The notes under the pieces were generated by a model, which was given only the letters and a program-made list of their open reading frames with translations, was not told the origin of the DNA and made no database searches. Both the position numbers and the translations under genes were made by a program. Shown here in pieces: positions 12,699 through 63,924 of a stretch of 64,000 nucleotides of DNA; the stretch's first letter is position 1, and every line of letters begins with the position of its first letter. Origin of the DNA: Tilletia caries (lineage: Eukaryota > Basidiomycota > Exobasidiomycetes > Tilletiales > Tilletiaceae); the NCBI GenBank assembly GCA_032718865.1, contig JALUTQ010000005.1, forward strand, positions 248,001-312,000. Reading direction: 5' to 3'.

Positions 12699-15600
12699 TC
12701 CCGCCGTCGAGATCTTAAGCGCACGCTCCTTGGCTTCCTCCTTGCGCCGCACAGCCGCCTCGGCAGCCGCCACAGCCGTAGCCATGCTAGCAGGCGGGCT
12801 GCCCGCGAGCCGATCGACCAGAATAGCCAGGACGACTTCTCGCAAGCGAGACTGGCAGAGCTTGTGGAGCGGAGAGTTGACACGGAGGTTGGTGTCCATC
12901 CAAGAGTTGAGCATGGCCAGAACCCGTTCCGAAGGCGGGTTCGCCGCCGAGTTGTACTGCTGGCCACCGTCAACATCGGCTTCGTCCATGACAACATCGT
13001 CTTTGAGGAGCTCCATCTCGCTGTCCTCCTTGGCCTTGCCCTGTCCGCACGCCATGACATGGGCCGCATGTTGCGCAGCCTTCTGCACAGCAGTCGCTTG
13101 CGCGGCTACCTGCAAGAGAACATCCTTGACACCCTCCCGCCAAGTGGCGTTCTCGAATTTGATGCTGCCGAACACGAGTCCGGCGCTCGCCCGACCATTG
13201 GCACCGGCACCGGCTTGACCATTTGAGCGCACCGACACCCGAGGGCTGATACCGCCGAATTTGCTCTGAGCCCCGACTTTGGCGTTGGCTTCGTTGAGCA
13301 GACACCAAATGCGATTCTTCATGTTTTCTAGCTCATTACTGGCCAACAAGGCCGCCTGCGCACGAATGGCAGCCGGAGATGCTTGACGAGTCGTGTTGGG
13401 TGTAGTCTCCTTGCCCTTGCCGAAATCAGCAGCAGCCTCGAGAGGTGAACAGGCAAGCTGTCGGAAGAGCAAGAGGAACATGTAGACGACGCTCAAGTCC
13501 GTGATGTCGTTATGGAACGTGATCAGCCGGTAGGCGTCGAACTGGAACGTCTCCGGGTAGCACGCAGTGTACGCCTGGTTCAGGCTGGAAGACGATGGAG
13601 CGATCCCGCTCGCCATGCCGGCCTTCCTGATGGCCACCAGTTCAGCGAAAGGCAGGGCGACGGGCGCTTCGAACAGCAATTGGAGAAAGCCTTCGTTGAA
13701 AGCACGGGAGATGAACTCCTTGCGCGACATGGCCGCATCGACATTGACTTTTGCGCTGAGCTTTTCCTTGGTGAGGCGACGGGCCAGAGTGAACCAGCGT
13801 GACGTCCTCTCGAGCGTGAGCGTGCCTTGTGCGACCTGGCTTCGGAACCATCGCACCTCAAAGTCGACGGCAGTCTCTACGAGTTCAGGACGTTTAGTTC
13901 GCAATTGGTGATTGGCAATGTCCTGTTGATCGCAGAGAAACAAGGTCAGCACTCTCTGCAACATATACAGATCAGAACAGGGCATTGAATGCTCACCAGT
14001 TTCATGAGCTCCAGAATCTCAAAGCACATACGGAGCCCGCGAACAACGTCCCCCTGATTGCACACCGCCGCCACCATTCGTTCTACCAGCTCATCCCGCA
14101 TCGGCGCGCAGTGCAATTTGAGTACCTTCGCCAAGAATCGGATCAGCCCTTCGAGATTCAACATGCCATGCTTCATCTCCTGGGTGATCTGCGCAGGATC
14201 GAGCAGCTGCAGCACAAGAGCGTGATGCGAGATCATCCGCTCGTGAGACATGCTGTTGGCGTTGGGATGCGCGACCGTCGGGAAACCGGAGAACCCCGAA
14301 GCGAGACTGCTCGGTCCGGCCCTCGCTTGAGAAGCATTCGCGTTCGAATTGGCGCCGCTGGTCGAAGTGTGACTTCGCATTTGCAGTGACGAGGACATCT
14401 GTGGGGTGAAGGCTGATGCTGAGGGCAGGATCGAGTCCAAGATGTCCCGAAGCGCGTCGATGAGGAAAGGGATGCGCGCCGGCCAGGAGATGTAGGGACC
14501 CTCCGTTGCCATGGTAGTGGCCGGAGACAAGGGCGAGCTGCGGAGCATGGTCGGTGGGCAGACGCATGGCATCAGCTGCCCGTTCTCGAACCGCAAGCAC
14601 GTACATCCATTCGCAATCTCACGCGCCACAGCTGCCCAGTACTGATCAGCGCTCTCGCGGACCTTCCTTCCGCGTTCGCCCTCAAAGTTAGGTCGGAACT
14701 GGACGTGCGGGTCAAAGACGACGTCATGCCGCAGCTGTGGGTTCCCGAGCATTTCGGATAGGTTGAGCTCGTTGAGCGTCTGCTTCGTGATCGAAGGGTA
14801 GAAAGAGGGCTGGACGATGTTGAATTCCGCGCCAACATGTGTTGGCACGACCGAGGTCCACTGAGTGGACACGTGAGCCGCGGGATGGCCGCTTTCTGTC
14901 GCAAGATGAGGACCGGTCGCGGCGGAAGATGAGATTTCCGTGGGCGAGACCGCCGTTGCGGACGAAGCCGCGGTGTCCGCCGGACTGGCCGCCACATTCT
15001 TCATCTGCACATCGGGATGAAGCGGTCCGCCGCGACAAGACGTTACTATGGCGAGGTTCGCAGGCGGGACGGCAACACCCTTGGAGAAATTTGGCGGAGA
15101 GTGCGAGTGCCTGGCCTGTTTCCAGATCTCCAGCGTCTTCCATGCGCTCAGATTGGGAAGACTGAGGGCTCGGCGAATGTCCAGACGGTGAATCCGGCGA
15201 ATTTCGGATGCCGGCCTTGTCAGGAAAGGACTGGTGGTGACGACGTTGGAATGTCCGCCCGAATGGCCGTGCATTGCAACAGGAAGCTGTGGAGTAGGGA
15301 GGGATGTTTCGACTTGTCGGCAAACTTGCTGCCTTTCGTCCTGCCCCAGAGGGGACCCGCCCTGAGTCGAGGGACGGATGGAAAGGTCGGAAGCAACTCC
15401 AGGTTCTTGGGCCGCGGCGCACCGCCGCAGCGTTGGCGCGGGACCAACAGACAGGGTAACTTCCTGCATTGCCTCGCTATCGTCCGCGATGGCTCGGGTC
15501 TGCGATAGTTCTCCGCCCTCTAGCGTATCCGCTTCGAGCAGCGGCAAATTCAGAGATGAGGTCGAAGCCATCTCGACGTCGTGGTCCGCCGTATCCTGAA

Positions 15601-16804
15601 AATGAAACAAAGGGAAGCTGGTGAGCACAGGCGAGCAGAAATGAAGATAAACAGCTGACTGGCGCAGGGTACTTACTGGATCCTTCAAGGCAGTCTCGGC
15701 GCCTTGCCTTTGATCGCCGCTGAGATCCGTTTTCCCCTTCACGATCTTTCTCCGCTTCCTGGCGGGCGGCACAGGCTGGAGCATGAACGGCTGCCGCGCA
15801 TCGGCCGATGCCTGTTGAGCTGACGCAGGATTCTCGGGGTCTTCTGGCGCTGATGCTTCTTTAGGCGTCGAGCCCAAGATGCTGCGAATCAGTCGAGCCG
15901 CAGGTCCACTCTTACTCGAAGATCCCTTTCTCTCGACCGCTCGCTCCGATCCTCCTCGCACTGGAAGTGCCCGTCCACGTGGCGGGCGTGCGACGACATC
16001 CTCTGCAGCAGCAACCGCACCATGGACCCGCAGTCGTAGTTCTGGAGCCTCTGCGGAGCTTTCGATGTCATCAGACGTGGTGCCGTCTGAGTTAGGGCCA
16101 GAAGTGCTTGAGTGGGGAGGTGTTCGCACATCGCTGTGTTGCGAAGCTGAAGGCCGTGGCTGTAATGTGGAAATTCGGTTCCGAGCCGTGCGAGTAGCTG
16201 CCGATGTGGGAGTCATCGGCGAGCGTGGCTCTTGGGCCGAGTACGAGGTCGCATGTGCGCTGCTGGAGGTGCTACTGTTGGTGCGGCTGCTGGAAGCAGC
16301 ATGCTGTTGCGACCGGGTTTGAGTCCGGGCCAAGTTGCTGCTGAGGAGCGCGTAACGGCCGAGTTCGCCGTTTCCCTCCTCGAGGGCAGTAGAGGTGTGG
16401 TGGGAGTGGGTCCCAGTGGAGGCCTGCCGTTCCGGAGAGGGAGATGTCCGTGGGCTGGAGTGCTGAGAAGAGCGTTTCCTTCTCCGCTTGCCCAGGTAGG
16501 ACGGAGCAGTGGCTGTGGTACCACCGCGTTGGCCAGACCGAGTGCGGTCGACCAGGTCAGACGTACACTCGGATGAGGTGGCAGCTGCTGCTGCACCGGC
16601 AAAGGCCTCGGCCATAGTCACAGCAGCGGCTGAGTCCGCCTCGTCGTTGGAAGGCGATACCTCGTTGGCAGTGAGATTGAAACGCAAAGAAGTTGGCTGG
16701 CGACTGTTCGTTGCGGAAACGGCCGCTGTGGTTGTCGCCGGTGCAGCAGCAGCATTGCTGGAGCTGCCGATGTTTCCGGGCCCGGCCCCAGACGAATTCA
16801 TCAT
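12072..16804 (-). CDS. TCP11/Sok1-domain protein
   Basis: Three in-phase exons (16804-15677, 15595-13997, 13922-12072) give about 1525 residues. The first 600 or so are low complexity (Ser, Thr, Ala). The conserved TCP11 region starts near residue 680 (VFDPHVQFRPN), runs through ITQEMKHGMLNLEGLIRFLA and HCAPMRDELVERMV, crosses the third exon (DIANHQLRTKRPELVETAV) and includes FHNDITDLSVVYMFLLLFRQ. In yeast, Sok1 is a high-copy suppressor of loss of protein kinase A; TCP11 in mammals also acts in cAMP signalling. After about residue 1130 the protein is again low complexity with poly-Gln and poly-Ala runs. The protein is long for the family because of these extensions. Confidence 0.8.
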
Positions 16805-17870: not shown

Positions 17871-17879
17871 GCCGATCCG
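17871..17879. repeat. Left 9-bp target-site duplication of the 17-kb element
   Basis: GCCGATCCG directly precedes the terminus TAGTCTCATAG and recurs exactly at 34955-34963 directly after the opposite terminus. Confidence 0.85.
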
Positions 17880-18030
17880 TAGTCTCATAGTTCAGACTAT
17901 CGTTACGGTCGAGTGTGCGTGAGCTGTGTGTGAACGCGTGATCTTGTTGTGTGGTGATCACGCGTCACAGTGTGTCACGTGGCAGCAAAAGCAAACGCCG
18001 GAAGCTGCCAGTGACAGCACACTGCACTGA
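17880..18030. repeat. Left terminal inverted repeat of the 17-kb element
   Basis: Imperfect inverted repeat. The outer 18 bp are identical to the right end once the nested MITE is removed. The inner block around 17950-18010 (GTGTCACGTGGCAGC, GCCGGAAGCTGCCAGTG) is nearly identical to its inverse counterpart near 34370-34430. Confidence 0.8.
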
Positions 18031-18090
18031 CCGTAAGGTAGTCTGATCCCAACCCTCAATGGAATCGACACTTTTCACCACCACGACCCA

Positions 18091-21000
18091 ATGTCCCAAG
18101 CAAGTCACACAGGTCAACGCGCTGGGTTCCAAAACCCTCCCTCCCCAAGTTTTGAGCCGATCCGATCACAGGATGGCGAGATATGGACTTTTGACTCCAG
18201 GTGAGTAGTAGCCTGTAGCTGAGACCTAGGTGAGAATGGCTTGACCGCTGAGCAGCCTTTGATCCTCAACAGAGACGTAGGTAGCGGCACTGAGAGCAGC
18301 AGCAATAGCAGCTCAAGTGAATGCCACCAAGCCCAGGACGGCAATTGGCTCGATTCGGACGAGGAGATGGCCGACGATCCCGACCAGCTTTCCTCGCGGC
18401 GTCGACTACAGAATCCCGACATCAAACACTTCTTCAAGTACCTAGACGACAGGAACATCAGCTGCGGAACGCTCATCCGGAACCTGTTCGACGTGGACGC
18501 ATCAAGATATTGCCCTGAGGTTCGGAATCTGCTGCAAGTACACGTCAAGCCCTTCTTCCACTCTCAGTCAGCCCACGCGTTCGTCGCCGCGTCCAAAGGC
18601 GCAAAGAAGGTCGCGCTGGGGTCTGTTGTCGACGAGATCAAGCGCGAAGGGAAGCGCGCGGCCCGGATGCCCGAGATTCGCCGACCTCCGTCAATGGATC
18701 GAGCAGAGGACATCAGGACGTACCGATTCGCCGACGCCATGGACGACATCGCTCGCACCATGCCCTTCACGAAAGCCGTCATCGCCGCCATTGCGACGTC
18801 AAGCGAGGACGAGGAAGAAGCACCGAGCGCAGACCTCGTAGCTGTCGCGCAGTCCTTGGCCGACCTACCTAGGTCTTCCACTCCGCCGCCGGTCGAGCGC
18901 AAGGCGGACGTCGACATTTCTGCAACAGCACTGGATCAGATGCGCGAAGCGTGGGAGGATGTGGAGGATCTCGAAGAGGATTCCAACCAGAATGCGGAGG
19001 ACGGTCGGGACGATCTCTCACAACAGGAGCCCGATAAACCGAAAGCGGTGAAGGGAGCCACAGTCTTGCGGCGAGGCAGTCGATCTCCGAACATAGTGAG
19101 TCCTACTCCCTTTCCTCCTGTCGAAACGCTTCAACTGTGGCTGATACTCATGCTTACGCTCACGTTCTGATCGGCTATCTAAGATCTGCACTGCTGCCAC
19201 CCTCTCGCTCCTGTTCTCCAGACACCAACGAAATTCACGATTCGCTCTCACCCTCAGCCTTTTTCTTTTTGCATCGCGAACTCCACGACGGGTGATCGAA
19301 GTCCTGAGTCGACTGGGCATGTGTGTGTCATACATGACAGTCCTCCGAATAGTCAACGATCTGTCACGAAAAGCACAGAAGCAGGCACGGTCGGCGCTCC
19401 TCGACAAAACAAAAATCCACGTCTTTGGATACGACAACATTAACTGGCAGCAAAAAGGTCAACAACGTCGGCACCGGCCACACCACGTCGATGAAGGCAG
19501 CGACTCACGGCACGATCTACGAGGTGGATCCATCGACCAAGCTTCACGAAGGTCCGATTCACCCGGTCTGTCATCCTCAAGTCTTCAAAGACTTGTTCGG
19601 CGAGGACATGCCGCATCCAACCACAACTCCGACAAGTCTGGTGGCTCCCGAGGATCCTGCCCTCATGCTCAAACTGCGAAGGAAGAGGGATCAGATGCGC
19701 AAGCAAGCACTGCCCGCCCAGCTTCAGCCCGCCGACATCTTGCTCGGAGACGAAGACGACGAGCACATTGTGCTAGCAATCCTCAGTCACGTCCGGAAGG
19801 AGTTTCTGCAGCGGCACTCCTCGATCGAATTCGACCCAGAGAAACAGCCCATTCCTGAGCCCCCACAGGTGTGGCCGCAGATGCTCCGCAAGACCAAGGT
19901 GATCCCCTTACCGGTACTCGACGTCGACGAGGGCACGACGAAAGGGAACCTTGAGGTTTTCAAGCAGTACTTCCGGTTCCAACTCCAAATTCCCGACTCG
20001 TTCTGGCGAGAGAACGTGTTGTTCACCTCCGCAGATGTCTACTCCGTCGAGAAGCTCAAGACGGGGCAAAAAGGTCGGCAACTAGACCGCTCATCGCAAG
20101 AATTCGACCGCTTCTCTGCACAGCATCCTCTCGCTGCTCCCTGGCATCTGATGGTAAGTGTGTCTGATCAGGCATCGTCATTCTTCATGCATTTTTGACC
20201 ATGCTCTCTCCCTTCCAGTATGCATACATGCGCTGCCTCTTCTCGACATATGGAGGCTCGAAGGAGAACGCCAGTTTCATCAGCTTTCGACATCTTTCAG
20301 AACGAAATGGCTTCCGGCACCTGCTTTCCATCCCACACAACTTCCACGACGGTAATCGCTTCCTACACTTCTGGTTCTCTGCTGCGAGTGTATCTGTTGT
20401 CGCCAACGCTCTCCGCAAGCACCGGCAGCCTCCAGAAGAGAACGACGGCCAGCAAGGCGAACCTGCACCGGCGCGACGAGCAGGTACACAGCGTCCCGAG
20501 GAGGCTGTTTCTCCTTCGACAGGTCTTCAAGAATGCGAGCATCCAAAGGACGAGTTTGACGACCTCGATTACGAAACATTCATGCGAATCAGCGAGGAGG
20601 CCGTACGGAATATGATTGGGACAGGATCTTCCGACATGGTGGACGAGCATGAGCACCAAGACGACTTTGCCTTGCAAAGCAGGTTGATGCTCCTCGACAT
20701 TGGTCTGTTCATCGAGCTTCAGCACGCGATCAAGAACGGCGATCCAGGACGGATGCTGGTGGTCATCAAGCAGCTGGTTCCACGATTCCAGGCATCTGGC
20801 CAACACAACTACGTCGCCGAACTGCTGGATATCCTTGTGACGATTCGTTACGAGCTACCTCCCCCTCTGCGTGCCGTCATGCTCTCAAGTTTTCTCGTCA
20901 ATCCTAAGGGCAAGCCGGACACGTTCACTCCCATCGACCACGTTCAAGAAAACTTCGTCTTCGAGCTCAAGAACTCGTGGCCTGTGGGAGGAACCACGAA

Positions 21001-21562
21001 GTCACTCCAGTACAAGAGTGTTATCGGCTCGCTGCTGGAGGTCCTTTCGAACTTGAAGATGGGCTTCTGGAAGGACTTGGGTATCAGTGGCCAAAACCAA
21101 GAGCATTCGGACAAGAAGAGGAACGCTACCATCGACTCTCTCCGGATCGACTTCGATCGTTATGCGGTCTTCGAATGGGATCAAGCGGGACGGAGCTGTG
21201 ACACCTTCGAGGTACTGCGCGGCGATACTGTCAAGGAAAAGAAGGACCGACTGAGGAAGCAGGGCAGGCCAGTCGGACGGGTTCGGCAGTTCAAGAACGT
21301 GGCCTGCGACATGTTTAAGACCGGTATGCTCGCACTCGAAGGCAAGACAAGTGCCACCGGCACGTTTCAGCGATGGGTCAGGCGTCGAGCAGCAGCGATG
21401 AACAAGGAGGGAGCTGCTTCCATCACGATTGACGATCAAGACGCTGTCGACATTCCTGACGACGATGACGACGACGTTGTCGATGGAGAACCTTTCGGTA
21501 TCAGCGTTGTATCGGGTAACGTCGACGAGTTCGAGGAGCTGGGAGATGACAATGGAATCTAG
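18091..21562 (+). pseudogene. DUF6589-like basidiomycete protein, possible transposase, with one frameshift
   Basis: Exons 18091-18200, 18273-19095, 19184-20153 and 20219-21562 fit in phase apart from one extra A in the A-run 19452-19456. The product would be about 1081 residues. Residues 1-310 are acidic and disordered. From ICTAATLSLLFSRHQRN a conserved domain runs through RVIEVLSRLGMCVSY, HVFGYDNINWQQK (a D-N-[IL]-N block usual in this family), QHNYVAELLDILVTIRYE, LVNPKGKPDTF and EHSDKKRNATI to FKNVACDMFKTGMLALEGK. I know this order from uncharacterised DUF6589 proteins, abundant in basidiomycetes. The Asp and the RNase H-like spacing suggest a transposase but this is not established. The tail is acidic. 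It stops 19 bp from the end of the helicase gene. Confidence 0.6.
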
Positions 21563-21581
21563 TGCATTCCAAATACGCAGA

Positions 21582-24324
21582 CTACTTCTTCTTGGTCTGG
21601 ACGGTCCTCTGTTTCCTCGAAGTAGCTCGAGCATACAGTCCAGCCATCCACATCTCTGCCCAGGTCTCTCCTTCCTCCGGCTTTCGTTGCTCGAGCCATG
21701 CCTTGGATGGGCATACTTTGTTATCACCTGTAGAACCCCAAGGTGAGTATCATGAACGAGGTAGTGTGAAGGCACACAGCGCCATACTCACTTCGATGGC
21801 CTCTTCCTTCCACCGTACCAGCACCAGTTCTGCGGTTGATCTCCTTGCCGATCGTGCACTCGGAGACCTACGGCGGCAAAGGATTCTGATCAGATGGGCA
21901 TTGTAGGAGAAGTCGCTGCTGCTGAAGGTATGTACTCACGGTTGTGTTGGATCCCGACGCTTCTGCCTGCTGAGCTTGCTGAACAGCTTGCTGCACGCGC
22001 AGTTGACGATCTCTCTCCGCACGCAGCATCCGCTCTGCTTCTCTCTTCTTGCGAATCTCCTCCGCCCTCTGCTGAGCCGCTCGCTGAACTTCTTCCCGCT
22101 CCTGCTCCCTCCTCTCCCGGTCTTCCCGCAGCAGATCCTCAACTACGACTTGGAGCTCCGGCAACACTTCCGACTTGAAGCGCATGTTGACGAACGAACT
22201 CAAACGTGAGTCGCCTTGCTCGATATTGTGGGCAATCGTCTTGAGGTTGCTGACGACGGATTCGATGGCTTGCATGCTCAGGAAGGCATCGATGCCCATT
22301 CTGCCTGCTCGGTTGGTTCCTTTCCATTTCGTTCGCCACTGCTCTGCCCGCCACTCCTCAAGGCGGACCTGCAAGGCCTTTTGAAGAGCCATTACTCCGG
22401 GGAGGGCGGGAATCACTGGAGGCGGTGGAGGCTTTCGTTCGTAGGGAAGGTCGGGCAAGGGTTCAGGATTGCAGGTTGTGCAGCAACGCAGCTTTCGATC
22501 ATCAGGTACGTGACGACTGGAAGAGTATAGCTCGCTGTGCGTGGGTAACAGCTCTTTCTCCGGTTGCTGCAGATAATCGAGAACGAGCTGTCGGATGCAT
22601 GCGGTACGGGCAAGCCCGTGAGCGGACAGTGCGAGGAGCTCGTCATCTACCATCTTGCGCGCCGCTGGCGCCTCCTTCTCGCCGGCTCGCATCACTGCTG
22701 CGTCTTTGGCCAAGGACGGAAGGTCGTCCAGGTGCTGAGGGGCGGGCGGATCTTGAATGGGGAGAAGCTGTCCGGTTGTCGCGAGGGCCTTCTTCGTTTC
22801 CGGATCGATATGCGTCGGTTCGACAAAGCAGATCTCTTCCGCCTCGTCCGCAAAGTCCCTACCGGCTCGACCCGCACGCTGCCACCATGCCGAAACGCTG
22901 CCGAAAAGCTTGGGCTGGATCACCCTCTTGACCGGACGACAATCGGCGCCCATACCGAAGGCATCGGTACAGATCGCGATTAGAGTCTTTCCCGTCAAGA
23001 TTCGAGAATGAACCACTTCGAGGTGCTCTTCCGACATATCGGCGTGGTAGACATCAACGGCATCGTCGAAACCGGCGCGCACACACCACTCGTTGATGAC
23101 GCGGTGCATTGATGTAGCTAAGTCCTTGTTGTTGATATAGATCAACGTGACAGGGAACTGACGCGTTCTTTCCTCTACAGATGCAGCTGAATCGACGCCG
23201 TGCCACAGTTCCGGCATGACGGATAGGATATCGAGGAAGGACGCGGCCGGATAGCGCATCGGCAAGATCCGCAAGAACAGGTTCGGTCGATCGGTGCCCA
23301 CATCGATGACAGATGGATTACGCAGGTTGAGTGTCGATTGGCAGGCCTCCCGTGCTTCTGGTGTCAATGTTGCTGACATGATCAGGACAGGGACCGACAG
23401 GTGTCTGCGTACTTGTCCAAGCTGGAGGAACTTCGGACGGAAGTCGCGACCCCACTGGTCGAGCGTGTGTGCCTCGTCGAAGATGAATGCGACGGCTCGT
23501 TGACGGAAACGATCATTCCGCAAGACGATGTCGAGGAAATCGCCTTCAGTCGCGGTCTCGGCGGTCGTGAAGACGAGGCGATACTCGCCATCCCGGATGG
23601 ATCGCAGGTGGGCTGGGCTCTTGTTGGTGCTGTCCGCGTAGGTTGCACGGTCCTTGAATCTGTTGAAGGAGGGAAGCATTTAGTGAGTTATGCGGCTCAA
23701 GATGATGTCAAGACTGAAGGGTTGGATCGCTAACCTTTCTGCCATCTCTGAGGTCAACGACTGCAGGGGCTCGATGATCACGATAACCTCGTCTGGGAGC
23801 AGGTGATCCAGATGCTCGAATGCTTGTCCTTTGCCGGTGGACGTCGGAGAAATGTAGATCGTATCGCGGCCCATTCGCACGCTGTCGGCAACCACAATTT
23901 GACTGGGTTTCGGAGGATGGTGAAGATCTGATCGGGCGAGGATGGCGATAGTCTCTGGGCACAGCTGTGGAGAGGGAGGATATCATAAGAGTTCATTGGG
24001 GAAAACGAGGAAGAAGCAGGAAGAAGATGTCAGTACTGTTCAGAATAAATGAAGATAAGTTCAGCATCGTCTCCATTCTCATCAATGGTTTACCTTCGCT
24101 CGCTTCGCCCATCTAGTTTCTTCATTCCCGCCCTCGTCTGCGCGCATTCGTTTCCCGAGACTGCCTTTAGGAATGATCGCGCTGCCGCTATGTGAAGTCC
24201 TCGATTGTTGCGGTCGTTGCTGTGCCTGTAATGGCATACATGCGCTCGAATTGGCTCGAAACGGGAATACATGAGCACCAAGAGATGCTCGAGACCTCCA
24301 GCTATACATTACCGTGCTCGGCAT
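21582..24324 (-). CDS. RecQ-like superfamily 2 DNA helicase
   Basis: Five exons (24324-24094, 23964-23735, 23659-21940, 21867-21792, 21727-21582) join in phase to give about 800 residues. Residues 1-77 are basic with a likely nuclear signal (GKRMRADEG). The helicase core shows motif I as ISPTSTGKGQ, motif II as FDEAHTLDQWGRDFRP (DEAH plus the RecQ aromatic-loop region), motif III SATLT, motif V GMGAD and motif VI QRAGRAGRD. Motif I ends GK-Gly instead of GK-Ser/Thr, which would weaken Mg-ATP binding. After the core come a CxxC pair (CCTTCNPEPLPD) and a long Glu/Arg/Gln coiled coil. It is tail to tail with the DUF6589-like gene, which suggests joint function in moving the element. Confidence 0.75.
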
Positions 24325-24864
24325 CGTTCCTGTTGGTAGTAGTGGAGTATTTGAACTGTGTTGAGGAGGATAATGATGACGGGAAGGTCAAGGTCTGCGA
24401 ACAGGTCAGCTAGCACTCTGAGAGGGTCAGCTTTCATCCACCATAACTCGACAACCACTGATCAGAATGAGCTCAGACTTGGGCAGCATACGTTTGAGCA
24501 CATGTATAATCTATTACTGGAGTTTGAGGTCATTCTAGATTGGTCGTTGCAATCTCTAATGGGCACCTTTGGAGTGGGATCAGACTGCCTACACTGCTAG
24601 AGGTTCGCGTATGTCGTTGGACTATCGTGGTGGCGATATCCTACGCCACCGCCGAGGACTGCTGAGGATCATCGTCGGGCCTCACCCATGCTCTCATAGT
24701 CTGCGAGCTCCGAGGAGACTCTCACACTACCTCCTACGATCACCTGACTCCCACGAGACCCAGCGATGATTACTTCCAGTTCCACTTGTGATACACACGG
24801 TCACACGCATGAATCTTCCAGCATCCAAACAGCTGCGCACAATTGCATTAAAGGAGATTCAGAT
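24325..24864. other. Spacer inside the 17-kb element
   Basis: About 540 bp between the 5' end of the helicase gene and the 3' end of the zinc-finger gene. I see no gene. Confidence 0.35.
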
Positions 24865-27800
24865 TCAAAGGTCTAGCGCTTCCGGTCTGTCATTAGGGGC
24901 CTCCTCGTCGTCGCTGCCAGATTCGGTCCAAAAGTCATCGTCTTCGTCCTGGTTTTCATGTCGTTCGGCTCGCGCATCATTCTGCCCTATGTCGTCTTGC
25001 TCGTCCATGATTTCAATAGCTAGTTCTGCGATCTCTTGTTCTGTGGGGGGGGGCGTCTGGAAGTGCTGGATAACACAATGAGAGCTCGAGAGCCGAGCGA
25101 AAAAGGCAATGATTCAGTAGGTATTGTTGTCGGCCTTCCTCGCTGTGGATGACGCCTGCATCCGTGAAGGTCGTCTCCTCTCGCTCCATGCGGACTTGAT
25201 TGGCGTCGCCGACCACCTTGCATCCATGGTGATGGCAGTCGTGCATGGCATTGACGAGTCGTTCAAATCCCTGGAAAGATATGATGAAAAGAATCTTGTG
25301 AGAATAAGAATACGAAGGCGAGATAGGGAAATGATAGCAAGTATGGCTCATTTACCTCAATGCCTACGATCTCTTGTCTATCCTCTTGAAGAATGCTTGG
25401 CTGCAGTCCCAGATCTTCGCCCCAGTGCATGACCATCACTTCTACCTGGAGCTGAGTGCTCACTGTAAAAATTCGATCCACCCGGACGATCCTCCCGTCA
25501 CCAGTTCTGTGATCAAACCAGGAGGTGGAGAACTCGCCAACCCTCACTCGATCCCCTGCTGATGTGATGATCCTCTTCACCGAAGAGACCGCCTCGTCCT
25601 CCTCCGTAGAAAGGCCGTAAAGTTTTTGCAGACTGGAAGGCATTAGTGAAAGCAGATTGGAATCCGGCCTGTGAACGATGCCGTCTTTGACCCAGCTACC
25701 TCCAGCCGCCAAGTGCTGAATGGCTTCTTGATCCATCATGCGCTGCAGAATGTCTTTCGAGGGAGCAGAGCGATTGCTCTTGATGGACGCATCCCGGACC
25801 GCAGAGTTAAAGGATTCATATCGTTCCGATGTAAATCCCTTGGCCGGTCCATATGCTTCAATGTTGTCGACTATGTGAAGTAGAATATGAAACTTTGGTT
25901 TGCCTGTGAGTTTGGAAGGGAAAACTGCCGCTGCGGCGGCATAGAAGATCATGAGGGCGGCCTTGACATCTTCCTGAAAGAAGAGGAGAAAGCAAAGAGC
26001 CTTATCAATATACATTGCAGGTGAATTGTCGCCTGCTACTCACTTTGTATTGACCCATCTCTTCCCATGAAATCTCTTCAACAAAGAGGAGACGTCCCAA
26101 AACACCCAGAGCACTCCATGCCATCCACAGTTCCAGGGACATTGTCTCCGCTTTCATCAACGGGTAGAATGCAACTGCCGCAACTTGTACGATCTTCTTG
26201 AGGTCCTTGCCGATGAGACCGCCTGCATTGTCAATCAGCCATTTTCCCGGTAGGCACTTTGCATTGACCACACCCGAGAGAGACACAGCCTGAAGCCGGG
26301 CAACAGCGTCTCGCTGGGTGGAGCTAAACTTTGTCCCACCGATGCTCGATACTGTGTGAATCCACAAGTACTTTGCGACGCCGAGCAGAAAGGTGTGGAG
26401 CAGGTCCACTGGCGTAGCGGCACAGACGTCGAATCCCGTCTCGTCTTTGTAGAGAGCAGAGATTGACGTTAGCGAGATTCAGAAATCGGAGAGGTGAACT
26501 CAAGGAAAGACACATGAGACCCGTAAGATACGTACCGTACAGCCGCAACAGCGGAGAGTGCCATTTTTCCCTCAAGCATCTCCTTTCGTCGTGCCTTCAC
26601 AGCTTCGTCATGGTGTCGGTCTGGTTTCGATTTGGATAGTGCAAGCAATTCATCACACAGCACAGCAGTCACCCCGTCCTTGATTCCAGTATCGCGTTGT
26701 CGATTGGACAGCGTCGATGCCACGCCTTTGGCAGCCAAGTTGATTTGTTTACGATTCTCTTTGATGACATCGACGCTGTTCTTCTTCGCTCCGAGCTGAA
26801 ATGCATACATGGAAGTAGATCAATCAATATCTGGTCACGCTCAGGTTGACAGTCAAAGTGTCCGTCATCGTCTCCCGTGCCATAGCCGATGCTCCTGACG
26901 ATAGAGCTCACCTTTAAGAAGTTGGCAAACCCTAGCACCTCTTTCATCTGTCTCCTCGTCCCTCCCGCTCGACAGCATCGGCACGCATGAAGACCGGACA
27001 TCCCGATGGATGCTGAAAGCATAGCCGCCATCGGGTTGTCGGCAACGCAAAAGATCAAAATCGGTCTGACGAGTGCTTCTTCGTTTAAGAAACGATCATG
27101 GACCGGGAAGGGATCGTTGTGTAGTGCACTGAGAGCGTTGAGCCATTGAGTATATATCAAGCGTGTCAGTGATACGTGAACATACTCGAGAGTTGAAAGG
27201 CCCATGCTCCGACGGAACTCACATCAACTCGTCAACCGCAGCACTCATCAGGTCGTGTCCGCTGACCTTGGTGCTGACGGACAACAGCTTGACGTTGATG
27301 CGCTTGTCCATCTCGGCTCTGGGTAATGCTGCGTTGGACATGTAGATTCCGATGTGTTCATTCCAACGCTTTGTTGTCGAACCAGACGTCTCATCTTCGA
27401 ACAGGATAACAGGAACCTGATAGACAAGGCGATTGCCGGCCTTCAGGCGGAGGTGATTGATTCGAGGCAAATTTGTCCCGTGCTGATCGACTGGAGAGGA
27501 CTGGATGGTGATCAGAGAGAAGCATCGTGACGTGTTCGGGATATTGAAGGAGTGGAGGACTCACAGACATCAACTTCGTGAAGTACTGAGCGTTCCCAGG
27601 TCTCGATTGTCTCGGGATCGAACTCGACGGGAGACACGCCTTGAATATATGCCTCAAAGTGATCGCCGCGCCGAATCACTTGCCATGCCTCACATCTCGG
27701 GTCGCCCTCTTCATTGATGAAGAATGTATAAGGCCGCAGAAGCTGGCCACCAGTGACCTGTACAACCTCATCGGTAAAGACAGTCTCACCGTTGCTGAGG

Positions 27801-28962
27801 CGAAAGCAGGGCGGTGTCTTGCGCGTATCCGTCTGATGCGCCATCTCGTTCCCGTGAAACACCTCCCTCATTGATTGATCCCGAACAGGCAGCAGTATCA
27901 TCTTCGTGCGCGTAATGGGATTGGCAAAGTCCTGCAGAATGCAGGTGGCCAGATCGCCAGACACAACAGTCACAGAGAAAAATACAGCGTTGAGGTTTAG
28001 AAATGATCAGCGAGAGCCAAAGGGTGGAGCCTGAATATAATAGACTTCAGCAACTCACGTTACGGATCTTATCCTCCACGCTGCTTGAGAAGAAGATCTT
28101 ATTGTCCGAAGTTGTGTGACGATAAAGGGGAGGGGACACATCCGATCTGATGAGCTTCATGGCTTGAGAGCAGGCGTACGCAGACGGAGTTCCGCGCGCA
28201 TCCAACGCGTTGGCAAAGTCGAGGGCGAAGCCCAGCGACGCCTCGGACAGGACGTGTTGAGGCGAGTTCTTCAGGGAAAGGGCAAGGAAAATCTGACAGT
28301 ATAGTTGTATCGATTAGCAAAGCAAGTATCTGGACTCTGCTGATCATCAGAGACTCACCTCCTTTGACTGAAAGGGGAATGCATCGTCGCTGCCTCCGTT
28401 GTGCCTCCGATGATCGTTGTCCTTGCTTATCTCCTGCGTGAACGCTTCATCTTCCTCCTGCATGGCCAGTCCCTCCTCCACCAAAGACGCCATGTCGTCG
28501 TCAAGGTCCATGCGACGAAAGAAGTCCTCCTTTGCATGGTCGTTTGGATTATCAATCAGCAGGTGATCCTCTCCCGACTCGAAGAAGGGATCGGTCACTG
28601 GCGTCGCACTCCTGTCCTGCTCCAACTCCTGATCATGTTGCTGCAGAAGGTACCGTGAATGAGCACAGAACGATCCACCTACACGCGCAAGAGACTTACC
28701 CATGTTGACTTGTTACGTTGATGACGGCCACTCGACGCGTGCTGACCGAGGTGCTTTGGCACGAAAGGTCGTCTTCCATCTTCATCGCAGGCCAAACACA
28801 CGATCCGCGACGGGGTGCCGTCCAAGAGACGGAACTCTGTCAAGAGAAGAGGGGATCAGTGACACTGACAGACAGCGGACAAGTATGAGGTGAAGAGCAG
28901 AGCCACTCACCCGGACCAAGCTGCGCCTGAATCGCCCCTGCTGTTTTGCGGTACGCAGGCAT
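24865..28962 (-). pseudogene. Large zinc-finger transposon-associated protein, C-terminal frame shifted
   Basis: A multi-exon minus-strand gene. The first exons (28962-28911, 28836-28700) encode MPAYRKTAGAIQAQL and a C2H2 finger (IVCLACDEDGRRPFVPKH followed by HASSGHQ). Later exons carry VPVILFEDETSG with RWNEHIGIYMSNAALPR, then FCVADNPMAAMLSASIG with HACRCCRAGG, then VDLLHTFLLGVAKYLW, LPGKWLIDNAGGLIGK, and KPKFHILLHIVDNIEAYGPA with FTSERYESFNSAVRDASI, and finally MHDCHHHGC. This block order is one I recognise from many uncharacterised large basidiomycete proteins linked to transposons. The last frame slips at a G9 run (25045-25053); one base less would continue it as an acidic tail to a stop at 24865. 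It could be the DDE-type enzyme of the element; I cannot place catalytic residues. Confidence 0.6.
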
Positions 28963-29196
28963 GTCGATTGCTGCTGCTGTATCATGTATGACTTCGTTGT
29001 GTGGATGTGGACTCTGGAATGCGGAATGTGTGGGTGAGGGAATGGGTAATGTGTGCCCGTGCGTCAGTGCGGCGGAGGAGTGTGGTCGCGTGATGTGATG
29101 TGGCAAAAGGACGAGCGTTTCTCTCTTCGGTTCTTCTCTCTCACAACCACACCCTCACCATCACACCCCTTTTTTATCACAGATTTGCCATTCCAT
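28963..29196. promoter_or_regulatory. Divergent promoter between two transposon genes
   Basis: About 230 bp separate the start codons of the zinc-finger gene (-) and the coiled-coil gene (+), so both must be driven from here. A pyrimidine run (cccctttttt) precedes the plus-strand start. No specific site was identified. Confidence 0.4.
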
Positions 29197-31090
29197 ATGC
29201 CCAAGTCACGCAAGCCGGTCGTTGCAGCCGTCCGATCGATTACATCGCTCGGCGAGTCATTCTCTGCTGCCGAAGACGACGATCGAGATGCTGTCCATCT
29301 TCCCACTGCAGAAGATGTTTTGGATGCTGCTCGAAACCGAAGCCAGAAGAACTCAAATGCGCGCCAGAGTTCAGAGCCTGAGGAGGACGAGGAGGATTTT
29401 GGATCCGCTGATGAGGATGAAGACGATCAGCCGAGCAACAAACGACAGCGAGCTCAAGCAGACGAGGCAATGCGTCCAGAGCAACAAGCAGCTGTTCCTC
29501 CATTACTGAGGCAGTGGGCTCAGCGTTTCCGACTCGGGCCTGAAGCAAGAGATCTACTTGAGGATCGGTATCAGCTGCAGATGTCGGTGAGTGATGTATA
29601 GGATGAATTGGCATTCTTTCACAGTTGCATTGACTTCAGGATTTTTCTTAGTATGGTGATGACCCACCAACAGTTGCCGACATTTTTGACTGGGCCCGCG
29701 ACCTTTCTACCTGGGAAACTTCGACCCAATCCGGACAAATGTTGGAGCAGGTCATGCGAAAGATCGATCAGCTAAAGGATGACGTCGAGAAGCTCAAGAA
29801 AGGAACGGGAATACTGACGAAGGGAGACTTGGTGAGCTGTTGAAAGTGGCTCAGCAGCGTTTATACTCAGCCCTCAGGTGTCGCTGTAACTGATGACAGG
29901 TGACCAATTGACCCTTGCATTTTCTTCATGCTTTATAGAACAAGCTCGGCCAGGCTGTAGCCTTCGTGTTCTTCAGCAGTCAAATTACAGAGTACAGCGC
30001 GGACTCAAGTATTGCTACGCGCACAATGGTGAGCGTTCCTCTCCACACCCACTCCCTCTTCTCCGGCTCTCGTCCCCAAGCTCTAATGAAGAGGACAGCG
30101 CGATAGAGAAATAATGATTTATAAAGCCGTGTTCATTGCGATGATTGATCAGTGTCCAGTGATAGCTGATGCGTTTCGATCGTCTTTCCCATCTCTCACG
30201 CGCCGCAGAAATTCCTTAAGGCAAATCCTCATCAAGTCGGTCAGCATTTCAAAGAGCTGGTGGAGGATCCGGAGACGTGCGATTGCCACGTCGAGCCAAA
30301 AGTCAAACAGCTCCTGAATCGCATGAGAGACATGTGCGCAACAAGAGTGAGTATTTTTACAAGGTGCACGTTTTTGCTCTCGCGAGTACCGCCGCTTCCC
30401 TGACGATTGGTTTGTTGTCTGCTGATACGATTCGTTTTTTTGCTTGCTGCTGGTAAGGTGCACAAATCGATGGGAGTGGACGACGATACGGAGGTACAGA
30501 GCGGAGATGAATTGTGGGACACCATTTGCAAAGGATACAAGGTTCCCTTCACCAAGAAGCGTGCGATGCGGCTCCTTTACATTGTAAGTATTTTCCAGTT
30601 CCTAGTCCCTACATCTTGACTCTGAAGTCTGAGTTTTGGATGCGTTATGATTTGCATTGAACTGATGAATATATCCTTTTCTCGTTTCAGCGCTTTGTCG
30701 CGACTCAGCATGCGCCTCGTGAGAAGAACGGAAAGCCAGTGGGAGACTTTTGGGAGACCGTGGACGCGACGCTGAAGGAGTTCCGCCAGCTTCAGGACCG
30801 TGATCCTGATGCTGCCAAAAAGTGAGTGTTTGAGCTTTGAGCGTGTTCCTACAATACTACTTTCTGCTGTGGACCAGCCATGTGTTATGTGTGAATTTTT
30901 ACGAGAGCTGACAACGTTATCTGTCAACTTCATTCATCCACACTCGGCACTCCACGATCTGCAACGCAGGGAGCTCGAAGCCGTGTGGGTGAATGACAAA
31001 AAGCGTTTCGGAAGTTTCGATGACAGGGCGATGACCAAGGCGGACGAGAAGCGAGAGGAGGCCCTCGCCAATGCAGTGCGATCAAAGTGA
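29197..31090 (+). CDS. Coiled-coil accessory protein of the 17-kb element
   Basis: Seven exons (29197-29586, 29652-29831, 29939-30028, 30209-30346, 30458-30583, 30691-30821, 30970-31090) join in phase into about 391 residues with no break. Residues 1-90 are Ser/Glu/Asp-rich with a basic start (MPKSRKPVVAAVRS) and a likely nuclear signal (NKRQR). Near residue 150 a short coiled coil follows (MRKIDQLKDDVEKLKKG). The C-terminal half is helical and basic (KVKQLLNRMRDMC, TKKRAMRLLYI). I do not recognise the family. Its intact frame and its promoter shared with the zinc-finger gene suggest it is needed by the element, perhaps in DNA binding or assembly. Confidence 0.6.
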
Positions 31091-32242
31091 GGCATCGACC
31101 AACACTCGACACCGATTTCTCAGCCTCCGACCTCTATTACGATCACTCCGAGTCACAATCACATTTTCTCTTATCCCTTTCCCCCTTTCTCTTTCCCCTC
31201 ACGAATATCTGGAAGATCACCTCTTCTTTGACGCGCTGAACATTGACCATCACCTTTTTCGCCTATGACCCACATACTGACACTCCATGCGTTACTTTCT
31301 CTAACGTTCCTCAGCCATCCTACATATTTCTCTTTGCAGGAAGCTTACTCGTAACTCGGGGCAGGATGCAGTCGCAGGAAGAGGACTGTGCTCTGCCAAC
31401 GTCGGTCATCACGCCATCCGTCATGCGCAGCACGGCCAATCACACTCCAAAGCTGCGCAGCTGGCAAGATCGTCAGGTTCCTTCACTTAGGCCGTCCATT
31501 TGGTACGTGTCGTGGCTGTCCCCGTTGAGGCGTGAGGACCGAAGGGAAAAACTGATCGTGACCGCTCTGATTTCTCATAACAGATCATACACGGTGGAGT
31601 CTCGGCTACATCCTTTACGCCCTGTCGCTCTCCTCTCCGGCCACTTGCCCTTCGTCGGCAGTTTCAAGCTGCGGTTGCAGGCGAAGATCGTAAAGGGGAA
31701 GTGGGAGATGCAGAACGGCGGCTGCGTCGGCTATGGGTGCCTCAGATCCATAGCTCAGGCCAACACGCCTGCAGGACGGCTCATTGAGACACTCCCAGTG
31801 AGTTCTTTCCCTCTCCCCCCTGGTGCCTCCTGTTGTCACACTGACCTCGTCTTTCTGTCCGAAACACTTCTTTTCGGTCCATTCCGTCTGCTTCCTCATC
31901 TGCTTCCCCTCCTTCAGCCTCCCGTACTTTTTCTCTCAGATGTTACCCTCTGTCTCTTCAACTACAGCCGACACCGCTGAACACACGCCGAGCTCTCTTT
32001 CTCTTTCTCCATCTTGTCCCTGCAGATCCACTTCGGCGTCCTTTCGGCCCGCCATGCCTTCGACCAGCTCCTCGCTATTCCAGCAGTCGTGTCTGGGTGA
32101 CCGGACTACGAGGGTTTGCCGTTTCCGTCTGCTTCCCCGCCCTCCCATCGACTAGTGCGCCTTCTGATCTCTCTTGCACCTGGTACAACACATATCTCGT
32201 GCCTTTGCTGACCCTCGTCCTACCTTCTGTCCCTCCTGCCAG
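31091..32242. other. Decayed exon-like fragments inside the element
   Basis: Pyrimidine-rich spacers alternate with exon-like pieces bounded by plausible splice sites: about 31351-31502 (after tttgcag, before gtacgt) and about 31585-31799 (after ataacag, before gtgagt). Frames in them contain stops or show no known domain. They look like remains of a spliced gene. Confidence 0.3.
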
Positions 32243-32940
32243 GCCCTCGGCGAGCTGCCGAGCTCACCAGCACGCTCGGCTCGTTCCTCAAGAAGAAGCT
32301 GAGTGCCAGAAGGCGCTCGACATCGTTCAGATCCCTGAGCGCATCATCACCTTCCGGTTAGTCCCTTTCCCATGCTGTCACTCTGCCCTTTTCTTGACGC
32401 GCTGCTGACCTTCTATACACTTGCCTTACCGTTGTCTCGTAAGACGACAAGGGCAAATGCCACGTCAACCGCAGTTGCCGTTCTCAGGTAGGTCGTTAAC
32501 CGCGTAGACGCGGGAAAAGAGGGACGCGCGACGCGTCTCATCCTCGTGCTTACGATGTCACATACTCTCAATCATCGCTTCCAGTTCAACTCCGCTCTCG
32601 GTCCTTACAAGGGTGAGCTCGTGATGAACGCGAGACGCGTTCATCGATTACGAGCTGACGATCTTTTTCTTTCAACATCTCGACGCGCCTCGGTATTCTC
32701 CGCTGCCACCCCACTGTGAACTTGATCATCCTCAAGTGAGTTGCCATCGAGAGCGCGTCTTCTCACCCTTGTGCTCTGATCATGACAATTTTAGTTCTCT
32801 ATTCCTTCCCAGGGTACGCGTCTGACGAGCAGTATCCGTCTTGTGGAAAGAAACTGAATTGGCTCAATACGCTCATCTTCATGTCATTCTTGAACAGTTT
32901 CCTTGCAGCCTTACAGGTCTGCCCACGGGCGGCGGCATAT
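32243..32940 (+). pseudogene. NADP-type glutamate dehydrogenase remnant (N-terminal half)
   Basis: Five short pieces, each next to splice-like signals, follow the order of fungal NADP-glutamate dehydrogenase. They are ELTSTLGSFLKKK then ALDIVQIPERIITFR (to about 32356), DDKGKCHVNRSCRSQ (about 32446-32489), FNSALGPYKG (about 32583-32611), RCHPTVNLIILK (about 32696-32736) and LTGLPTGGG (about 32911-32938). The first piece has a one-base loss after AAGAAGAAG. After GGG, where the enzyme has the Lys-Gly-Gly-Ser-Asp block, a stop follows. A possible further scrap (DTPDAGD, near 33440) may match the DVPAGD block. The enzyme would make glutamate from 2-oxoglutarate and ammonium; this copy cannot. 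It lies inside the transposon, so it is captured cargo. Confidence 0.65.
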
Positions 32941-34354
32941 GATGCATCTTCTGACGTGCTTCCCTTCTCTTCTCCAGTACATCCACCTCATCACCCACTC
33001 CCAACCACTGGCTCGGCAAGTGATACGGGTAAATTCCAGTTATTCAGTAGAATAACTGCGAGTAAGAATAAGGTCGCTTCGGCTGTTTTGGTGAAGATGC
33101 GCGCTGACTTCAATGCGGGCAAGAATTGACGTGTTTCTCTGACTCGTCATTTGTCGTTGCTTGAGTCTGACTCTCTTTTAAATTTTTCGGAAGCGACAGC
33201 TGGAGGAACCGCTTCGAAAGCTTCAAAAGAGCGAAGTACTGATGACGCGCATGCTCGCTGCTCACTGTCTGAAGCCCCGTAGTTGCCCCTGCTGAATGCT
33301 GACTGACACCCTTCTTCCTCCGCTCCGCTCTCCTCCTTTGCCTCTTTCTTTTTCCTGTAAGCAGTCCTCATCCTGGTTGGAACCTTCGTTCTCGCAGTCC
33401 GGCGCGTCAGTCGCCAGGAACACGCACCAGAAACGCGTATCCGACACGCCTGACGCTGGTGACATGGCGCGCATCACCCTCCGAAGCGGAATCTCGTTCC
33501 CCCACCGCGCCTTTCGATCTCACTAGTGAGGTACAGCCCTTTTCTCCCCCTTCAGCAGGAAGGCTGCTGCCCCTGTGAAGTGTGAACCCACAAATGCTGA
33601 CTGCCATTTTTTTGAACTTCTGATGAACCAGTCCTCTACATCCCTTACATTTGATTGGAGATCCGGTTCACAATCTGCTCGTCAAGCGCGTCGGACCTGG
33701 CCGGTGAATCCCGTTCTTCGTCACCTCCAGGGGAATCGTGTCCACCTTGCAACTTGCAAGGTATCGTCGAAAGTCTACGGTTGACGGTGAGTGTCCTGTC
33801 ATTTTGCCTGCCCCCTTTACCCCCTCTGGTTTCCTTACCTTCCTCTAACACCTCCTCTCAGTTCGCACCGCGGGGTGGTCCGCATCTCTCGTCTACCGCC
33901 CCTCTCCTCCCTTCCAGCCGTGCCTCATCGTGCATCCTCCGTCGGCGACCGTTCGACCTGGGCGCGCATCGGAGATTCGGAGCCCTCCTCACCCTGCGAT
34001 CTGTTCTATGATCCTTCTGAATCGTCATCTGAAATTGTCTACATGTCGCACGCGTGTGGAATGATATGCTGCTACACATTACTGGCATTGTCCTCCTGGT
34101 TTGTCCGAAGCGTTCCAAAGCTGTAGAAGGGGATAGAGTCTGTGAGGGTGATGAACTGCTGAACGACATCATGGGCGAGCTCCTACGAGAGCTCCAAGAG
34201 ATCTCAGGACATCGCCCTTTGTGGGTCTCCTAGAAGTTCCAACGATTAGGCCTAAAAAGCTCGTGGGATATCCTCCTCATTAGTATCACGACTGTCCCGA
34301 GATAACCTCACGACGCACGCAGACTGTCGCAGCCGACTGGCAGTGTACGCGGAC
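32941..34354. other. Right inner part of the 17-kb element, no intact gene
   Basis: About 1.4 kb of mixed pyrimidine-rich sequence with splice-like signals and short frames. Apart from one possible glutamate dehydrogenase scrap near 33440 I see nothing that codes. Confidence 0.35.
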
Positions 34355-34954
34355 ATCCAAGTGTTGACACTGGCAGCTTCCGGCATTTGCTTTTGCTGCC
34401 ACGTGACACACGAGTGATCACCACACATGCTGGTGATCATCACATGTCCGCAACGGCTGTCTGAACTACGAGGTGGAGGACGAAAGTCTTCGGATTTCTG
34501 AAATACTTAGTGTTTACACTCAGAATCTTCAAACTTGGCTCTCAATTGAAGTCCACAACCAGTCAAACAACTTGTGAGCTGAAAGGTGGTAAGCATAGAA
34601 CACACGAATAGGCACCTTTTTGCTCTTCAGAGCTGACTGCTTTTTGTCTGCGAATGGGTACGTGAGCAAAGTGTGAAAATCCGAGATTTTTATTCAATTA
34701 GTAAATTATTAAGTGATTTCATTTTGCTCCTAACCCTATTGAGAGTCGTCTTTTTCCCAGACAGAAACCGGTCCGACAACTTAAGAACAAAAGTTGCTCA
34801 AGTACACGCTGTATGATTTCCAGCTTTCCGCTCGCAAGTTGTTGTATTGGTTGTGGACTTCCTTTGAGAGCTCCGAAGGAGCGATTTGAGTGTAAACACT
34901 AAGTAAAATTGAGGTGCGTTCGAAGACTTTCGTCCTCCACCTCGTATGAGACTA
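34355..34954. repeat. Right terminal inverted repeat of the 17-kb element, split by a MITE
   Basis: From about 34368 the sequence is the inverse of the left end (TGGCAGCTTCCGGC, TTTGCTTTTGCTGCCACGTG, GTGATCACCACACA). It reaches GTCTGAACTA at 34468, is interrupted by the MITE, and resumes as TGAGACTA at 34947-34954. Confidence 0.8.
34469..34944. mobile_element. 476-bp Tc1/mariner-like MITE
   Basis: The ends CGAGGTGGAGGACGAAAGTC and its complement are inverted repeats, and similarity continues inward for about 130 bp (shared CTTAGTGTTTACACTCA, GAAGTCCACAACCA, ACAACTTG). A TA dinucleotide flanks each end (34467-34468 and 34945-34946), the target duplication expected of Tc1/mariner-type elements. 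Removing it restores the left-end sequence GAACTATGAGACTA exactly. It has no coding capacity. Confidence 0.85.
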
Positions 34955-34963
34955 GCCGATCCG
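34955..34963. repeat. Right 9-bp target-site duplication of the 17-kb element
   Basis: GCCGATCCG directly follows the right terminus TGAGACTA and equals 17871-17879. Confidence 0.85.
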
Positions 34964-56456: not shown

Positions 56457-57640
56457 CTAGTTGATGTGGAACAATTGAACTTTCAGCGCAAGAATCACGC
56501 GCTGCGCGCAACTCTGGAGCCTGGAGGAGAAGGAAGGACTGACCCACTGCTGACACTCGGGAACATCGCACTGAACCCACTGCAAAGGAGAGCAGTAATC
56601 CAGAATGTCAACATATGAGTAATCAATCGATCTGCGTGAATCGTGATGAAGAGAAGAGAACCTCACATCATCAACTGGATCTCCCTCTCCCTCCTCCGCC
56701 TCGCTGAAAAGCTCTGGCGCTTGACGGCTGCAGCACACTGGACAAATCTCCAGCATGCCCAGCTTTGAGCTTCCGGCGGTGGAGTTAGGCTGGGCGCGGC
56801 GCGCATGTTCTGCCTTCCCCCCTTCCTCACTGCCTCGAGCCTTTCGCTTCCGTATCTCCGGGCGCGCTCGAGAGGGGATGGAGAGAGGAGGGGTTGAAGT
56901 ATCCTTCAAATGTAGAGTGTACAGTATCAGTAAAGCAGAACGAAATGACACGCCACTTTCCTCTCACCTTCCCCATTTGACCCACATCAGAGTCACTCTC
57001 GCCGCTCGAAATAGAGATCTGTAGAGAGTGCAGTTTGAATCAGCTTTGAGCTTGGGCTGGAACCGTAAAAAGGGAGAAGGAAGTAGCTCACTGCGTCGTC
57101 AACAGTATTGTTCATCTCTCCCGACAATCCTGGCTCCTGCTTCACACTACCTGGTTCGTGTTTGACTTTGTAGTCAGACCGGACACAGGTGTGCTGTGCG
57201 AGGACGTGGGGCGGCATACGAACGCGACAATGTTCGCACTGGTTCTTGCCTGTCTCTTTGCCTGGCCGAGAACCTGAAGCTGCTGCAGATCCCCCTCCCT
57301 CCCATCGCGACCTGTCGAACATGACCTCGAGAGGCGGGAGGTACGAAGAGGGAGGAGCAGCAGGGGGGGTTCATCACGGTTCCCCACCACGTAGGCCTGC
57401 TTGCCTGAGTAGATGGCGGCGAGGTCGGCTCCGGTGGGGAACAGAGGGGCTCCATCTTTGTCCCGTTCTTGCCACAGTCGCACAGCCGGGGGGGAAGCAC
57501 TGCACCACCTGATAAATGAGGTAGAGAAGGGTGAATCAGCAATCCTGACCGACAGCAGCTGAAAGCGTGTTAGTACAGCTGCTACGTACGTGAAACCCAA
57601 TGTCTCGATGTCTTTGGCAATAAGGTTGTCCCCGGAGTAA
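56457..57640 (-). pseudogene. Zinc-binding protein, 5' end cut off by repeats, one frameshift
   Basis: Exons on the minus strand: from about 57635 to 57590, 57508-57092, 57018-56968, 56903-56667 and 56579-56457. The first visible exon (NLIAKDIETLGFTW) runs directly into a GC-rich repeat near 57640, so the start is lost. It has a CxxC...H...C finger (NQCEHCRVRMPPHVLAQHTC), a CPVCC pair and a C-terminal WVQCDVPECQQW that resembles a CW or PHD-type zinc site. A C7 run (57363-57369 on the plus strand) breaks the frame; one more base would join it. The protein may be a nuclear zinc-finger factor; I do not know the family. Confidence 0.45.
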
Positions 57641-57786
57641 CGCGGAGGGCTCCGCCTCCGCACTTCCAAATTCCGCCGGAATTTTGACTTTCTGAGGCGA
57701 GCTCCGCCTCCGCAGACTAAGACAGAGCGGAAAAAAACCAGCTCCGCGTTCCGACGGAATTATACAAAAGTTGAAATCCCAGCTCT
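57636..57786. repeat. GC-rich hairpin repeat flanking the copia element (left)
   Basis: Repeated GGCTCCGCCTCCGC and GAGCTCCGCCTCCGC units with complementary GCGGAG and short inverted GGAATT/AATTCC segments. The same composition (CTCCGCG, GCGGAGCTCGGAATTCCGC) continues after the retrotransposon at 63925-64000, so the copia element landed inside an older repeat. Confidence 0.55.
57782..57786. repeat. Left 5-bp target-site duplication of the copia element
   Basis: GCTCT directly before the 5' LTR, repeated at 63920-63924 directly after the last LTR. Confidence 0.75.
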
Positions 57787-57866
57787 TGTTGGATATATGC
57801 ATCATCCATGACACTTGGGTCGAGACTGGTCTCACCTTTTAGTATAGTGGTAGAATGTTCACAACA
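57787..57866 (+). repeat. 5' LTR, 80 bp
   Basis: Begins TGTTGGATATATGC and ends GTTCACAACA (TG...CA). Identical by eye to 63642-63721 and 63840-63919. Confidence 0.8.
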
Positions 57867-57880
57867 GATTAAGAGTCTGA
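57867..57880 (+). other. Primer-binding site, complementary to a tRNA-Lys(CUU) anticodon arm
   Basis: GATTAAGAGTCTGA lies directly after the 5' LTR. Its complement TCAGACTCTTAATC reads like the anticodon arm of a tRNA-Lys with anticodon CUU. An internal (half-tRNA) primer is known for Drosophila copia. The same motif follows the extra LTR at 63722. Confidence 0.55.
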
Positions 57881-58433
57881 CTAGCTCTGCTCCTTTCTTC
57901 CCTCTGCTCCTGTCCGTGGACTTTCTTCTCGTCTTCGTCCTCGTCCTCGTCGATCTCGTCTCTGCCATCCTCGACCTCGTCTTCATCGATTTCGATTTTC
58001 GACCTTGTCCTCACGAATCGCTGGTTTCTCCACGATTGCTGTCGGTTCTCCGCTTGCCGCTGGTTCTCCGCCGCCTGCCAACCTACCACTCTGTTTTTCG
58101 GTGCTGCTTCTGGTCCTCCTCGCACACCTCGACCTTCGATCTCCACCTTGTCGGTCCTCCCAAGACGGATCCAAGGTTTTCTTCAAGCATCCAAGGCCCG
58201 AGCAAGACTTGCCTTTCGGCTTTCTCTCTTCGTTCTTGTGCCCTCGCTGGCCTCGACCTCCTCGACCGCGACTTCGAGAGCCTTTCTTCTGCTCTGCGTC
58301 GCCTTCGATCTCGTCCTGCGGTTTCTGCGTTATCGCTCCCGCCTCGTCCTCGACTCTCCAGTCTTCTCGACCTCCGATCCTCTTCTTTCTTCGGCCCTCG
58401 GTCTTCTTCCTTCTCTGCCTCTCTTCTTCGACA
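57881..58433 (+). other. 5' leader of the retrotransposon
   Basis: About 550 bp, CT-rich with repeated CTCGTC units. CTCCACCTTGTCGGTCCTCC near 58138 recurs near 63411, so part of the leader is duplicated in the 3' region. No gene. Confidence 0.45.
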
Positions 58434-63919: not shown

Positions 63920-63924
63920 GCTCT

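Follow-up and report, generated by a model that had tools for sequence, protein, structure and literature searches.

A 17,075-bp interval in the genome of the bunt fungus Tilletia caries (positions 17880-34954 of a 64,000-nucleotide stretch of contig JALUTQ010000005.1, here called the window) is resolved into a nest of three mobile elements, consisting of an outer element, an EnSpm-like element inserted into its interior and a miniature inverted-repeat transposable element (MITE) inserted into its right end. With a probability of about 0.92, the outer element is a transposon of roughly 6.84 kb belonging to the AcademH group, which encodes a DDE transposase and a convergent RecQ-like superfamily 2 (SF2) helicase, most likely moves by cut and paste and was later hit twice by other elements. 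This nest takes the place of the new superfamily that an earlier note, drawn from the letters of the window, had proposed for the interval as a whole.

Ends, copies and an empty site

The outer element lies between exact 9-bp repeats of GCCGATCCG, read from the flanks at 17871-17879 and 34955-34963. Its left terminus, TAGTCTCATAGTTCAGAC, starts at 17880, directly after the first repeat, and its right terminus, ending in TATGAGACTA, stops at 34954, directly before the second. The earlier note was therefore correct in seeing a DNA transposon with true ends and a 9-bp target duplication, while its description of the inverted termini holds in part: the left terminal 18-mer is intact, and the right copy is not contiguous, being split by the 476-bp MITE (34469-34944) with TA on each side. 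On the right, only the final 10 bp of the 18-bp terminus (TATGAGACTA, 34945-34954, minus strand) adjoin the target duplication, and their TA at 34945-34946 is common to the TA duplication of the MITE. The second inverted block that had also been noticed further in (17970-18020 against 34361-34411, 51 nt, 94% complementary) is present, and it is part of one imperfect terminal repeat of about 180 bp. In the copy on C40, where both ends are whole, the ends align over about 180 bp, with 18 perfect base pairs followed by a less conserved, gapped stretch and a well conserved block. On the basis of the inverted blocks and this end-to-end alignment, the left terminal repeat of the window copy is placed at 17880-18060 (plus strand, inner border approximate); the inner part of the right one, up to the MITE, is at 34348-34468 (minus strand), its inner border being that of the nested insertion.

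More copies with the same two ends, for which the earlier note had suggested a search, are found in the same genome. Genome searches with the first 200 bp and with 121 bp from the right end gave eight and nine matches, respectively, numbers that, owing to the likeness of the two ends, count the opposite end of each element too. C5 (the window), C39 and C40 each have both ends together, and C1 has them far apart; an extra left end is present on C40 (near 1467681), with 88% over about 105 bp. The copies on C39 (6,839 bp) and C40 (7,640 bp) have the same two ends and are flanked by exact 9-bp duplications of their own, GTTCGTTGG and CTGACAGCT, so that all three copies with both ends in place have such a duplication. 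A 9-bp flank match would be expected by chance with a probability of about 4e-6; with the same ends and separate duplications in two other copies, ends and duplication are beyond chance. The C39 copy aligns with window positions 17879-24592 at 99.5% and then passes straight to 34346 and onward, and 24592-34345 is therefore an insertion in the window copy. The same inner 9.75 kb is missing from the C40 copy, and the site is uninterrupted in both.

The copy on C1 is in two pieces, one stopping at window position 19159 and the other starting at 19206. These pieces (L020, C1:1394697; L021, C1:1418261) lie about 23.6 kb apart in opposite orientation, and the copy appears to have been split by a chromosomal rearrangement with its breakpoint inside the transposon. 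Its outer flanks match a locus on C40 (L022) contiguously, at 98% (115/117) and 96% (129/134), and the two matches overlap there by nine bases, ATCAAAAGG. The flanks adjoining the element are GTCAAAAGG and ATCAAAAGG, matching at eight of nine positions. Since the flanks are contiguous on L022, the target was a repeat of which one copy received the element and the sister copy is still empty.

The two genes of the outer element

The outer element contains two convergent genes, the introns of which were inferred from GT-AG sites and reading frame. The DUF6589 transposase gene occupies 18091-21562 on the plus strand (exons 18091-18200, 18273-19095, 19184-20153 and 20219-21562), and the helicase gene, encoding 750 aa, occupies 21868-24324 on the minus strand (exons 24324-24094, 23964-23735 and 23659-21868). 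In the C39 copy as it stands, the four-exon plus-strand gene is open over 1,081 aa and the three-exon minus-strand gene over 750 aa. In neither the window copy nor the C40 copy is the transposase frame intact; the helicase frame is open in the window. Because its right end is split and its transposase frame interrupted, the window copy can probably no longer move without help in trans.

In a Pfam scan at E values up to 1, PF20231 (DUF6589) is the sole family matched by the C39 transposase, at 5.9e-62. A conserved triad, the RNase H-like order of the predicted model and its structural neighbours lead to the prediction that DUF6589 is a DDE transposase. Among the aligned rows with a letter at the respective position, the triad residues are conserved as D387 in 88 of 88, D587 in 84 of 85 and E870 in 86 of 86; in a second structural look (VIA), rows 1-22 are all DDE enzymes (Hermes, P element, ISCth4, RAG1 or Mos1). 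The helicase frames of the window match DEAD and Helicase_C, and by sequence the solved relatives of the protein are RecQ-type enzymes (WRN, BLM and RecQ), with WRN as the best at 4.4e-27. The closest proteins of the outer element are from Tilletia, with 82% to T. indica. Protein searches from the window's family returned few relatives (seven, then six); a search from the Galerina protein P0008 returned at least 165 DUF6589 proteins at E 0.001, the best 120 of 165 being listed and those of the saprotrophic mushroom Schizophyllum commune being among them.

A gene pair found throughout the genome

The association of both genes extends beyond this family. DUF6589 has 75 matches in the genome, clustering to 48 loci, and a search with the helicase of the element gave at least 71 matches at no fewer than 48 loci, a lower bound given that 60 of 90 candidates were scored. 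(A genome search with PF00270, in which 35 of 132 candidates were scored, was kept out of the pairing count.) A helicase match lies within 8 kb at 41 of the 48 DUF6589 loci, where about one pair would be expected by chance. The orientation is convergent in 39 of these pairs, the same in two and divergent in none, and the helicases of both same-direction pairs also belong to convergent pairs in this count. Seven of 48 DUF6589 loci and nine of 48 helicase loci are without a partner within this distance; they may be decayed elements, and the helicases among them may alternatively be genes of the host.

A second family is represented on C6 and C28, each with one DUF6589-helicase copy; the two are about 98% alike and have the ends TAGTCTGG...CCAGACTA. 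The flanks read for these two copies show duplications of 9 bp (AGGATGGTA) and 10 bp (GCGCCGAACT).

Classification and alternative explanations

We class the outer element with AcademH, as a new Tilletia family whose ends are TAGTCT...AGACTA, since a helicase combined with duplications of 9-10 bp is the signature reported for AcademH in PMC10045372. There, AcademH duplications are given as 9 or 10 bp and those of AcademX as 3 or 4 bp, and their length is tied to the presence of a helicase (AcademH) or a nuclease (AcademX). Citing papers credit AcademH, a group of the Academ superfamily, to Kojima 2020. By report, AcademH also shares with the outer element its DDE transposase, SF2 helicase and fungal host; the differences lie in the terminal sequence and the Tilletia host, the likeness being one of reported features, not of reference sequences. 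The terminal inverted repeats are observed and the DDE fold is predicted. AcademX, by report a member of the same superfamily, is set apart by its shorter duplications and by a nuclease in place of the helicase. The 48 DUF6589 loci exceed the low copy number given for AcademH in Basidiomycota, Ascomycota and Mucoromycota in PMC10799480, but they comprise several families and include remnants. As to the predicted fold, no PDB entry reached E 0.001 in a Foldseek comparison with the transposase model.

The outer ends and their duplication do enclose all of the inner genes, as would be expected of one 17-kb transposon of an undescribed superfamily with genes that move together. However, the copies on C39 and C40 have both ends without 24592-34345, an interval with its own ends, TA flanks and another copy elsewhere; the uninterrupted C39 copy is 6.84 kb long with two genes, and of the remainder 9.75 kb is the nested EnSpm-like element and 0.48 kb the MITE. 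Moreover, duplication length and helicase fit AcademH as described in PMC10045372, and we consider the 17-kb unit of an undescribed superfamily to be virtually without probability. Much the same can be said of a Mutator-like element (MULE), for which duplications of about 9 bp would speak: the frames of the other gene match helicase domains, and the intact transposase, in the scan at E values up to 1, matches DUF6589 alone and no MULE/IS256-type domain. The suggestion that the enzyme is neither a plain Mutator nor a KDZ transposase agrees with the lack of a Pfam match to either. KDZ was likewise rejected, as the duplication is 9 bp in three of three copies and not the 8 bp reported for Zisupton and Dileera, and there is no Pfam match beyond DUF6589. 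The duplication of KolobokH elements is TTAA, which does not fit the 9 bp of the outer element, and KolobokH was rejected too. It is named as helicase-bearing in PMC10799480.

It could also be imagined that the DUF6589-helicase elements form a superfamily of their own apart from Academ, having arrived at the AcademH layout and duplication length by convergence. The assignment to AcademH draws on reported features, not on a comparison with reference Academ proteins, and no mention of DUF6589 was found in the literature searched, where PF20231 turned up in an unrelated context alone. Nevertheless, accessory enzyme, duplication lengths and fungal range are the same as those reported for AcademH, and such convergence is quite improbable. 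Equally improbable is the wider proposition that DUF6589 together with convergent RecQ-like helicases represents a separate superfamily to which a large and as yet unrecognised fraction of the hypothetical proteins of basidiomycetes belongs.

Nested insertions and surroundings

The nested element (24592-34345) has CACTGC...GCAGTG ends and TA at 24590-24591 and 34346-34347. A separate copy, flanked by TA on either side, spans C39:71444-82849, and C3 carries parts of its ends. Absent from the C39 and C40 copies of the outer element and having its own ends and flanks and a copy elsewhere, it is not part of that element. Its minus-strand frames at 25263-28006 are putatively tnp2-like, as indicated by CRCC and HILLH motifs, read by eye, and a weak Transposase_21 match within 26669-27223 (22.8 bits, under the cut-off of 28.6). 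Ten further frames gave nothing in a Pfam scan at E 0.01. In the EnSpm-type clade, C(2)C and H(3)H motifs are expected (PMC12730594, section 3.1.6). The nested element resembles EnSpm/CACTA and ESTA in its putatively tnp2-like transposase, CAC...GTG ends and both motifs, and ESTA also in its TA duplication (PMC12730594), a likeness by features and not by tree; the rust EnSpm families, in contrast, have 3-bp duplications according to the same paper. Of what marks EnSpm/ESTA elements, an EnSpm-type transposase with CA...TG ends and a duplication of 2-5 bp, the ends, TA duplication and motifs fit, but the Transposase_21 score is below its cut-off.

The MITE has 24-bp perfect inverted ends and sits between GTCTGAAC and TGAGACTA within the right end of the outer element. 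At least 25 near full-length copies of its family are listed (at least 476 of 479 query bases, 98-100%), and TA bounds the ends in all 12 copies with flanks read (L053-L064), both figures including the window's own; the family is young.

The C40 copy of the outer element carries a 790-bp insertion in its transposase gene (L019:3494-4283), with ends TAAGGTTGTCCCCGGAG...CTCCGGGGACAACCTTA and an 8-bp duplication, GTCGCCAA, which is another short non-autonomous element. Elsewhere in the window (GC content 56.2%), a Ty1/copia-like stretch covers 57808-64000, with a frame at 58885-60198 matching gag_pre-integrs and Pol_BBD. Window positions 57618-57785 and 63918-64000 match adjoining parts of the 790-bp insertion, and the Ty1/copia-like stretch may therefore sit inside a short element of that kind. 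Near the outer element is a Tcp11-domain gene, with an open frame at 13946-16804 on the minus strand; the insertion lies some 1.1 kb upstream of this frame.

Mode of movement and significance

The ends, the exact 9-bp duplications in three insertions, the empty sister site for a fourth and the gene pair are directly supported, and a DDE fold is predicted; cut-and-paste movement and the role of the helicase are what we infer. Most likely, the transposase would pair the inverted ends of about 180 bp, cut the element out and join its ends to the target strands at points separated by 9 bp; repair of the resulting gaps would then produce the 9-bp duplication. The helicase would probably act by unwinding or remodelling DNA while the ends are processed, while strands are transferred or during repair.

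The repeat table of the T. caries genome paper (PMC10684912) contains 283 DNA transposons, and the word "academ" is absent from the main texts of that paper and of the three-species comparison. DUF6589-helicase loci seem to have been unnamed so far in bunt-fungus genome papers. The gain is a modest one, a likely function for DUF6589: this domain, with a function unnamed in Pfam and 48 loci in this genome, probably serves as the transposase of Academ-type elements that carry a helicase. With clean copies, an empty site and a mixture of 9- and 10-bp duplications at hand, the role of the helicase in these elements becomes testable.
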